This document shows positions 17,216-28,671 of a stretch of 36,055 nucleotides of DNA, piece after piece (position 1 is the stretch's first letter; each line of letters opens with the position of its first letter). Source of the stretch: Actinomycetota bacterium (GTDB taxonomy: Bacteria; Actinomycetota; Acidimicrobiia; IMCC26256; JAGPDB01). The notes beneath the pieces are model-generated. The model worked only from the letters and a program-made list of their open reading frames with translations. It was not told the origin of the DNA and did no database searches. The DNA lies in assembly GCA_963169585.1 (NCBI GenBank), contig CAUJDU010000119.1, positions 1 to 36,055 of the forward strand, written 5' to 3'. The translations under genes were made by a program, and so were the position numbers.

Positions 17216-17231
17216 AATTCGACCAAATAGA

Positions 17232-17295
17232 AAAAGGCACCTATTTGTTTCGCGTACGCCGGAACGTGAGCGCGAAGCAATTAGGTGCCTCTTTC
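17232..17295 (-). terminator. Strong rho-independent terminator after groES
   Basis: GGCACCTATTTGTTTCGCG (17236-17254) pairs with CGCGAAGCAATTAGGTGCC (17271-17289) with two mismatches, and the stem continues inward towards a CCGGAA loop. On the minus strand the stem is followed by TTTTTCTATTT, a proper U-run. It lies between the groES stop and the NUDIX start and should end the groES transcript. Confidence 0.9.
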
Positions 17296-17309
17296 TCTAA
17301 ACGAGTATC

Positions 17310-17600: not shown

Positions 17601-17642
17601 GCATTTCTCCTGAATAGGTTATTAAACGGATATTTTCGATTA

Positions 17643-17669
17643 TTAGCACTCTCATATATAGAGTGCTAA
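17643..17669 (-). promoter_or_regulatory. CIRCE operator (HrcA binding site) upstream of groES
   Basis: The sequence TTAGCACTC (17643-17651), a 9-base spacer, and GAGTGCTAA (17661-17669) match the CIRCE consensus exactly on both arms. HrcA bound here represses groES under normal conditions. On the minus strand a possible -35 (TTGGTA, 17680-17675) and -10 (TATATG, 17658-17653, 16-base spacing) would place the -10 box inside the operator; the promoter boxes are tentative. Confidence 0.97.
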
Positions 17670-17725
17670 TACGTTACCAAGCCTGTTAGGCCCTATTCAA
17701 CTTCAACACATCGGCCATTATCCAT

Positions 17726-17772
17726 GCGATGGGCCTCTAATTCCGTATTTGTAGTACTAATAAGCCAATCGC
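17726..17772. repeat. Palindromic dispersed element, copy A
   Basis: GCGATGGGCCT (17726-17736) pairs with AAGCCAATCGC (17762-17772) at 9 of 11 positions, enclosing a loop that holds CGTATTTGTAGTA. The reverse complement of 28212-28260 has the same arms and an identical 13-base core; by eye about 39 of 47 positions agree. The element lies 12 bases after the tsaD stop codon and before the groES promoter. Since the loop is not part of the stem, its conservation suggests a recognised sequence, not just a terminator. Confidence 0.7.
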
Positions 17773-17783
17773 AGGTAGGAAAG

Positions 17784-18794
17784 TTAAAGGTCGGAGATTT
17801 TCCAGCCGGGATCAATTCCAACACCAAGTCCATCAGGGCCCCTTAGGTTGTAATGAATTAACCCCGCTACAGCAATCATTACCGCATTATCTGTACACAT
17901 CGACTTCTCTGGGATAAGAGCACGGATAGAAAATTCATCAGATAATGTTTTAACTTGAGATCGAAGATGCGAATTTGCTGCCACTCCACCACCAATAGCA
18001 ACTGCAGTTGTCTTTAACTTTTCGCTATTAAGTTTATTAATGGCGAATCGAGTTTTTGAAATTAATGAATCAATCACTGCTGCCTGAAAACTTGCACAAA
18101 CATCTTCTATCTTTGCATTTTCACTATCACGGAGTGCATATTTGACTGCTGTCTTTAATCCTGAAAAAGACATTTTTGTAGGTTCATCTTTCATCGGTCT
18201 TGGAAAATCAAATGCTTTAGGATTTCCTTGTAGTGCCAACTTATCTATGAGAGGTCCGCCCGGGTATCCCAAGCCTATAAGCCTGGCCACTTTATCGTAC
18301 GCTTCACCTGCAGCATCATCAATCGTCTGTCCTATAACTCGATATTTTCCAAGACCATCAACAATTACAACCATGCTGTGTCCGCCTGAAACCAATAAAG
18401 AGACAAAAGGAAATTCAACATTTTCATGTTCTAACAGAACGCTAAGAATATGTGCTTCGTGATGATTAACACCAACAAAATCTTTACCCATCGCATACGC
18501 ATAACTTTTTGCCGCAGTACTACCAACTAATAATGCGGCAGCTAAACCTGGACCTCTAGTGCCAGCAAACAAGTCGATATCGGCCAAGACCATCCCAGAT
18601 TCATCTAAAGCTGACTGTACAACATTATTTACCAACTCTAAATGATGTCTACCAGCAAGCTCTGGCACAACACCACCATATTTTTTATGTAAATCTATCT
18701 GACTAGAAACGATAGAGCTTTTAAGAATTTTCCCATCTTTAACAATTGCAGCTGCCATCTCATCACAGGAAGATTCGATACTTAAAATATTCAT
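17784..18794 (-). CDS. tsaD: tRNA t6A37 threonylcarbamoyltransferase
   Basis: TsaD transfers the threonylcarbamoyl group to A37 of ANN-decoding tRNAs, working with TsaB and TsaE, which are encoded just upstream. The 336-residue ASKHA-fold protein shows IESSCDEMAAAI at 6-17, the metal ligands H111 and H115 in NHHEAHI, VSGGHS, GGPLIDKLA, GGGVAANSHLR and the late CTDNAVMIA stretch with the third metal ligand. I start at the ATG at 18792-18794: it overlaps the rimI TGA as ATGA and has GAGGG four bases upstream. A longer reading from 18809 adds five residues the family lacks. Confidence 0.97.
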   Translation of the reverse strand: MNILSIESSCDEMAAAIVKDGKILKSSIVSSQIDLHKKYGGVVPELAGRHHLELVNNVVQSALDESGMVLADIDLFAGTRGPGLAAALLVGSTAAKSYAYAMGKDFVGVNHHEAHILSVLLEHENVEFPFVSLLVSGGHSMVVIVDGLGKYRVIGQTIDDAAGEAYDKVARLIGLGYPGGPLIDKLALQGNPKAFDFPRPMKDEPTKMSFSGLKTAVKYALRDSENAKIEDVCASFQAAVIDSLISKTRFAINKLNSEKLKTTAVAIGGGVAANSHLRSQVKTLSDEFSIRALIPEKSMCTDNAVMIAVAGLIHYNLRGPDGLGVGIDPGWKISDL

Positions 18795-19261
18795 AAATCC
18801 CTCAACCACATAATGGCAGCATCTTCACCATTATCGGCATAATACTTTGGCCTAATACCTTCACTGAGAAACCCGAGCTTCTCATACAACTCTATGGCCT
18901 TAAAATTAGACACCCGAACTTCTAAAGTCGAACTTTTTACACCTTGTCTTTTAGCGTAATCTAATAATTTGATAATTAAAGATCTACCTATACTATTTCT
19001 TCTGTATATTTCGTCTACAGCAAGCGAGTGAATATGTAATTCATCAGAAACTAATTGTCCACCTGCAAAGCCTAAAACAGTTTCTCGTTCTTGACCATTA
19101 TCTTTTTGGAGGATTGCAACAAAAATAATATGTGTTGCACTTCTCATTTCTGAAAGGAATGTCGTCCCACTCCAAGGGTTTGAATTACATCTAGATTCAA
19201 TACCTATAACATCATCAAGATGATGTTCAGACATTTCTACTAACGCAAAACTTCCGATCAT
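18791..19261 (-). CDS. rimI: GNAT acetyltransferase, RimI-like (ribosomal protein S18 N-acetyltransferase)
   Basis: A 156-residue GNAT-fold enzyme. It has the RimI-type entry NPWSGTTFLSEM, beta-strand HIHSLAVDEIYRRNSIGRSL with the acetyl-CoA loop RRNSIGRS, and the C-terminal VRVSNFKAIELYEKLGF typical of RimI. It is expected to acetylate the N-terminal alanine of ribosomal protein S18; substrate is family-based inference. Both ends overlap neighbours by ATGA (tsaB upstream, tsaD downstream), a tightly coupled arrangement common in actinobacteria. Confidence 0.92.
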   Translation of the reverse strand: MIGSFALVEMSEHHLDDVIGIESRCNSNPWSGTTFLSEMRSATHIIFVAILQKDNGQERETVLGFAGGQLVSDELHIHSLAVDEIYRRNSIGRSLIIKLLDYAKRQGVKSSTLEVRVSNFKAIELYEKLGFLSEGIRPKYYADNGEDAAIMWLRDL

Positions 19262-28211: not shown

Positions 28212-28260
28212 GCGATGGGCCTCTTAATACTACAAATACGAGAGTTTAAAGGCCCATCGG
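28212..28260. repeat. Palindromic dispersed element, copy B (possible weak terminator after rpsI)
   Basis: CGATGGGCCT (28213-28222) and AGGCCCATCG (28250-28259) are perfect 10-base inverted arms around a 27-base loop. Its reverse complement aligns with copy A (17726-17772), including the identical core CGTATTTGTAGTA. It lies 12 bases after the rpsI stop. On the rpsI strand the stem is followed by CTCTTTC, only a weak U-run, so termination is possible but not the whole story. Confidence 0.7.
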
Positions 28261-28272
28261 TGAAAAGTGAAA

Positions 28273-28671
28273 TTATCGTTTAGAAAATTGTGAAGCTTTA
28301 CGAGCTTTTTTGAGGCCGTATTTTTTACGTTCAACTTCACGTGCATCACGTGATAGTAGCCCTGCAGATTTCAAAGTACTACGTTGATCTACATCAAGGC
28401 CGACAACAGCACGAGCGATACCTAATCTAAGGGCACCCGCTTGTCCTGCAACTCCTCCACCTGTAACTTTCGCGTCAACATCATATACTTCAGACACATT
28501 AGAAATTTTTAGCGCTTCAATAGCGTGGCGAACAAGAACTTCATTGTTCAAGTATTGTTCTATAGGAGTTTTGTTAACAGTTATAGTTCCGTTGCCTGGA
28601 CGGACTCGTACTCGTGCAACTGCACTCTTACGACGTCCTGTTGCTTGGATCAATGGTTTGGATTTTGCCAC
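28273..28671 (-). CDS. rpsI: 30S ribosomal protein S9
   Basis: The 132-residue S9 protein binds 16S rRNA in the head of the small subunit, its C-terminal tail reaching the P-site tRNA. ATGRRKSAVARVRVRPG at the start and the terminal KYGLKKARKASQFSKR, with the invariant final KR, are intact. It follows rplM with a 29-base gap, the standard rplM-rpsI pair. Repeat copy B lies after its stop and probably marks the end of the pair's transcript. Confidence 0.98.
   Translation of the reverse strand: MAKSKPLIQATGRRKSAVARVRVRPGNGTITVNKTPIEQYLNNEVLVRHAIEALKISNVSEVYDVDAKVTGGGVAGQAGALRLGIARAVVGLDVDQRSTLKSAGLLSRDAREVERKKYGLKKARKASQFSKR

Follow-up and report, generated by a model that had tools for sequence, protein, structure and literature searches.

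The two palindromes at 17726-17772 and 28212-28260 of the window (the whole 36,055-nucleotide stretch of DNA that was analysed) are probably solo copies of a non-autonomous, REP-like mobile palindrome, whose autonomous form is a unit made of a gene for an AbiEi/Vsr-type nuclease with one palindrome on either side; that the nuclease drives mobility is our inference. Computation shows a palindrome family with covarying arms, a preferred type of site, nuclease genes bracketed by palindromes of a single subfamily, the fold of the modelled protein, and nuclease and palindrome sequences that diverge together. Movement itself was not observed, and all evidence comes from assemblies. The palindromes and the gene that they bracket suggest that Actinomycetota harbour a very small type of selfish DNA that has apparently not been described.

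Both copies in the window belong to one subfamily (subfamily 1) and share a 13-nt core, CGTATTTGTAGTA, the reading of which sets the strand of copy 1. This copy (17726-17772, plus strand, core at 17744-17756) is 47 bp long and scores 57.3 bits with the covariance model R1 (E=1.6e-12 in the source genome), while copy 2 (28212-28260, minus strand, core at 28228-28240) is 49 bp long, has near-perfect arms, and scores 74.2 bits with R1 and 48.0 bits with a second model, R2. The right arm of copy 1 is decayed, reading AAGCCAATCGC with two mismatches relative to AGGCCCATCGC, and the copy is 2 nt shorter than copy 2. The positions given for the two copies in a preliminary description are correct, as are its estimate of about 39 agreements in 47 and its identical 13-base core: the alignment has 39 identical element positions and the core is common to both. 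The description had also placed each copy 12 bases from the stop codon of a minus-strand gene, which is exact for rpsI (28273-28671, minus strand), but the distance is 11 nt for tsaD (17784-18809, minus strand); both host genes are site context and lie outside the element. Its statement that the copies lie in opposite orientation is borne out by the asymmetric cores, which face opposite ways relative to tsaD and rpsI. A gapped core pattern occurs at exactly these two places genome-wide and a looser one at nine places in the source genome, with no hits for the reversed control in either case, and the likeness of the two copies is not due to chance. The conserved, unpaired loop ascribed to the element holds within subfamily 1 and not elsewhere; other subfamilies pair nearly to the centre. 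The predicted hairpins are stable (z about -4 to -5). No Rfam match in the window reached the gathering threshold, the exact core had no match in 11.3 M genome contigs and 2.9 M viral contigs, and lone arms of the DNA-uptake type showed no clear excess in the window beyond the two copies. An integron attC site was rejected by inspection, the order of the arms being inside-out (GTTGGGC...GCCCAAC).

A covariance-model search for further copies, proposed in the preliminary description, recovered 12 clear copies and one more distant one in the source genome (G000, from an uncultured member of the Acidimicrobiia; 1.57 Mb in 147 contigs, 95% complete, with the window as contig C119), and no copies except for one weak match in two congeners and 58 other relatives. 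The window palindromes are two of about 13 copies of one subfamily within a larger superfamily, which comprises at least 44 elements in the source genome and 29 in the congener G001. When the ends were kept and the core was dropped (GYGWTGG-N35-CCAWCRC), 33 places matched in the source genome, 11 in G001 and none in the congener G002; reversed-pattern controls gave 0 in both the source genome and G001. A length-free hairpin scan of 196 kb recovered the same elements, again with a constant length of 49 bp, and model R2, which was built from 26 diverse members, also recovered elements from several further families within the order. All 93 curated elements (44 from the source genome, 29 from G001 and 20 from six other genomes) are 46-49 bp long. 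The ends read GYGWTGG...CCAWCRC and the interiors differ among subfamilies while covarying strongly. Each genome has its own subfamilies, the copies of which are near-identical, unpaired loop bases included; for several subfamilies of the source genome (e.g. GTGTTGGCAGGAAAA, with about 6-10 copies) the 95% complete assembly contains no corresponding nuclease gene.

Covariation in the stem and invariance of the loop had been suggested as checks. In an alignment of 26 elements, 86.9% of the 22-bp helix is paired and the covariation score is 0.683, compared to 0.186 in shuffles and no more than 0.178 when the alignment is slid. The 13-nt core is only one of many interiors in the superfamily. Compensated changes at consensus pairs number 54 versus about 7 expected under independence, a count that is inflated by the relatedness of copies. 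Uncompensated changes, read in transcript orientation, comprise 32 derived A.C and 27 derived G.U mismatches (40 A.C and 41 G.U when all mismatches are counted). Given this absence of a G.U excess, there is no sign that the hairpin is kept as RNA, and an RNA function is unlikely. In our reading, the palindromes were perfect when made and have since decayed as DNA.

Where these elements reside is far from random. Of 42 intergenic elements in the source genome, 26 lie at most 30 nt behind a stop codon, as compared to 14.5% expected at random intergenic positions (p=2e-12; genes called as longest ORFs). Several elements are located within tandem gene pairs, directly ahead of the next ribosome-binding site, and asymmetric interiors occur in both orientations relative to the genes. 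The tsaD-groES and rpsI-glmM loci are syntenic in G001 and G002, and both congeners are without the element at both; exact empty sites could not be resolved, the intergenic flanks at both loci being too diverged. At the site of copy 2, between rpsI and glmM, G001 carries an unrelated long palindrome with AGGGTCYGGCC ends (L103:16140-16300), which resembles the repeats flanking its RAYT gene, and G002 carries a GGGTCTGTCC..GGCTCAGACC palindrome. Different palindrome families seem to share one 3' site.

Five pairs of elements of the same subfamily lie about 1 kb apart, and each pair brackets one gene of about 305-317 codons (a protein of about 310 aa) in a unit of 1058-1086 bp (~1.07 kb). Three of these units are found in the source genome (C54, C81, C87), one in G042 and one in G010. 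The source genome encodes exactly three homologs of this nuclease, and all three are bracketed, each by palindromes of its own subfamily; the homology among the three paralogous units ends at the palindromes. The downstream palindrome overlaps the 3' end of the gene or closely follows it; the outer palindrome follows the stop codon of a host gene, at a distance of 9-10 nt in the source genome (rpsG, pyrB and typA, as named from their translations) and 11 nt in G042. Solo copies and whole units are accordingly found at the same type of site, just 3' of stop codons. None of the five units contains an AbiEii-like toxin gene between its palindromes, each holding a single gene, with the frame broken in one case: the unit at L116:1522-2455 (G010:C1) has its nuclease gene split over two frames and looks like a broken copy. 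We found no other type of gene bracketed by the element.

The encoded protein has an AbiEi_4 domain at its N-terminus and a REase_MTES_1575/DUF559 domain at its C-terminus according to Pfam, PF13338 being below threshold. An AlphaFold model (pLDDT 91.5) matches the AbiEi antitoxin 6y8q (E=1.6e-6) over the N-terminal ~200 residues, which make up two thirds of the protein, and the catalytic domain of the homing endonuclease I-Bth0305I (3r3p) with a TM score of 0.79 by target; Vsr ranks below. All of 30 diverse homologs retain the residues D243, E254, H261 and R273. On the strength of this model, the protein is predicted to join an AbiEi-type DNA-binding fold to a Vsr/I-Bth0305I-type (EDxHD) domain, for which no cleavage data are available. 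A study in a different context defined the MTES_1575 REase as a new domain of the Vsr type (PMC3710099). Annotations of the homologs go no further than 'DUF559' or 'AbiEi family antitoxin', and no full-length homolog was found on plasmids or phages, where the nuclease domain occurs alone.

The association of gene and palindrome extends well beyond the source genome. Nuclease homologs are present in 49 of 58 genomes of the order, and many of their loci carry one locus-specific palindrome on both sides. Among 52 homolog loci taken without selection, the left and right palindromes are shared at 30 by a strict threshold, versus 6 of 2652 mismatched pairs and 2 of 58 shifted windows; 22 fall below this threshold, and at 10 of the 52 loci matching palindromes are absent. 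Exact repeats of at least 15 nt occur on both sides at 21/32 loci versus 4/992, and the corresponding numbers for named genomes, which include Mycobacterium, Mycolicibacterium, Pseudonocardia, Gordonia, Hoyosella and Rhodococcoides, are 28/77 versus 36/5852. The conserved stretch used in this last scan was taken from a 7-row alignment, as a 30-row alignment gave none. Members of Mycobacterium, Pseudonocardia and Gordonia likewise show the palindrome-gene-palindrome arrangement. The more alike two nucleases are, the more alike their palindromes tend to be (Mantel r=0.40, p=0.0005, n=32), in a sample restricted to units chosen for having palindromes, and G002 has neither nuclease homologs nor elements. 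Some units are orthologous between species, and even between families, and have been kept for a long time (L168/L172, L152/L153); movement may thus be slow, or the units may have been domesticated. In the case of L152 and L153, from different families of the order (G010 and G005), the bracketed unit is apparently orthologous with conserved neighbours, suggesting long vertical retention.

A mechanism can be outlined, each step of which is inferred. The wHTH/AbiEi part would recognise the palindrome of its own unit as duplex, single-stranded DNA hairpin or cruciform, and the nuclease domain might nick or cut the palindrome or the target. Palindromes, alone or together with the gene, may be copied into new sites without target duplication by a strand-transfer or repair step that we leave unspecified. 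Copies would survive mostly behind stop codons because they presumably do least harm there. Of the identities offered in the preliminary description, a dispersed short repeat or non-autonomous mobile palindrome is the one supported: there are many copies, both orthologous sites in the congeners lack the element, and palindromes bracket a gene for a predicted DNA-cutting protein.

The position just behind stop codons and the stable predicted hairpins would also be compatible with transcription terminators or mRNA 3'-end stabilisers selected as RNA hairpins and unrelated to mobility. We consider this very unlikely. There is no U-run after the stem, judging from base composition over the 12 nt past the element in gene orientation, which supports the earlier remark that the element is not a plain terminator; canonical terminators are present separately from the elements (C1, C146). 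The ratio of G.U to A.C changes (27:32, or 41:40 for all mismatches), the occurrence of interiors in both orientations and of copies inside tandem gene pairs, and the orthologous 3' ends that lack the element all argue against it, and the bracketed nuclease genes would remain unexplained. The RNA recognition element considered in the preliminary description is disfavoured by the same derived mismatches (A.C 32 versus G.U 27) and by the mixed orientation of the loop relative to genes. AbiEi-type proteins bind inverted repeats for autoregulation, and, given the AbiEi antitoxin fold in the N-terminal two thirds of the nuclease, the palindromes might instead be operator or regulon sites of an AbiEi-like defence or toxin-antitoxin regulator rather than mobile DNA. 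While less easily dismissed, this reading is unlikely too: palindromes flank both sides of the gene, the dispersed copies are at gene 3' ends and not at promoters, and at both sites the congeners lack a copy. Moreover, the near-identity within a subfamily extends to unpaired loop bases, so that its copies descend from one another, and an operator would account neither for a single ORF between palindromes without a toxin partner nor for the fused nuclease domain.

Two other readings accept mobility and assign it to a different enzyme. REP/REPIN elements mobilised by RAYT, an HUH Y1 tyrosine transposase, are of the same size class, extragenic and likewise near stop codons (within about 20 nt; PMC3733652), and the source genome does contain a RAYT-like gene. 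This gene, however, is flanked by GAGGGTCCGACCCTC and not by the 49-mer, and R2 has no matches in Y1 loci. Most genomes that carry the element lack Y1: six (G031, G042, G055, G010, G018, G005) have the element without a Y1 match, two (G002, G057) have Y1 without the element, and no Y1 transposase locus flanked by 49-bp palindromes was found across 58 genomes. Nor is there a conserved GTAG/CGTC-like tag beside the palindrome, the conserved ends being the paired GYGWTGG/CCAWCRC. We regard mobilisation by RAYT as highly improbable; Y1/RAYT is excluded as the partner by the other ends at its loci and its mismatched presence. The RAYT-like Y1 gene is single-copy in all three congeners (L046:1320-1995 in G000:C104, L045:1220-1960 in G002, L044:1239-1990 in G001), bracketed by inverted ends of the GGGTC type (GAGGGTCCGACCCTC in the source genome), and it probably constitutes a TIRtron distinct from the 49-bp family. 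MITEs derived from a classical DDE or recombinase transposon would similarly be short inverted-repeat elements with several subfamilies, but this reading is scarcely tenable: in 91 copies, target-site duplications (k from 2 to 9) were as frequent as expected, with none at k>=4, and no gene other than that of the AbiEi-Vsr nuclease was found between copies of the element.

The palindrome-nuclease units share features with several known systems. As in REP/REPIN-RAYT (REPtron) systems, short dispersed extragenic palindromes lie behind stop codons in genome-specific subfamilies, and a single-gene enzyme unit is flanked by its own palindrome. In contrast to these systems, the enzyme combines AbiEi with a Vsr-like PD-(D/E)XK domain and is not HUH-Y1, and the 49-bp family has no GTAG/CGTC tag, a near-fixed length of 46-49 bp, GYGWTGG ends and at most a few dozen copies. 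In TIRYT/TIRtron elements, inverted or self-complementary repeats stand on both sides of a gene, and some of these repeats exist as dispersed families (Di Nocera et al. 2013, PMC3733652). The units resemble them in that palindromic repeats with dispersed copies bracket a gene, whereas the TIRYT enzyme is a tyrosine (Y1) transposase; it is the RAYT-like gene with GAGGGTCCGACCCTC ends that resembles TIRYT. The predicted catalytic domain superposes on that of the Vsr-like I-Bth0305I/EDxHD homing endonucleases (3r3p, TM 0.79 by target), with catalytic-type residues conserved, yet the unit nuclease resides outside introns and inteins, is fused to an AbiEi fold and is bracketed by palindromes with dispersed solo copies. 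Its N-terminal ~200 residues adopt in the model the fold of the antitoxin of the AbiE type IV toxin-antitoxin system (6y8q, E=1.6e-6), from which the unit differs by the fused nuclease domain and the lack of an AbiEii-like toxin gene between the palindromes.

A REP-like lifestyle is already known, and mobility of the 49-bp family is unproved. To our knowledge, RAYT (an HUH transposase) is the only dedicated enzyme known for dispersed bacterial palindromes. CGTC-REPs have no known partner (PMC3733652). Here, an AbiEi-fold/Vsr-type enzyme unlike RAYT is tied to its own palindrome at dozens of loci in Actinomycetota, and an abundant uncharacterised protein family (DUF559/MTES_1575 + AbiEi) gains a hypothesis of function. 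The origin and spread of REP-like repeats thereby become testable with a single purified protein and its bracketing sequence. Because the likely target lies right next to each gene, endonucleases of readable specificity may result. We found no mention of DUF559 together with 'inverted repeat' in the 5.39 million open-licence papers searched (subscription literature was outside the search), nor of the palindrome-nuclease association in those of their titles and abstracts that appeared relevant; with the search so limited, novelty of the association is likely but not certain. The wider proposal that AbiEi-Vsr nucleases are the enzymes of a phylum-wide, undescribed form of mobile DNA, in which palindrome-nuclease units are copied by nuclease initiation without target duplication as a counterpart of RAYT-REPIN with a homing-endonuclease fold, is in our view evenly poised between right and wrong.

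Several palindromes outside the 49-bp family were also noted. In the source genome, a 79-bp palindrome with AGGAGGCCTGGCC ends (L056:7821-7899, G000:C90) and a 57-bp palindrome with GGGGTTGAACC ends (L052:5601-5657, G000:C77) possibly represent further small repeat families. Within the window, an inverted repeat, TATTAGCACTC...GAGTGCTAATA, is located upstream of groES at 17641-17671, which we take to be of the known CIRCE (HrcA) operator type, and a terminator-like, imperfect palindrome of 68 bp lies at 17229-17296, near the end of the groES operon region.
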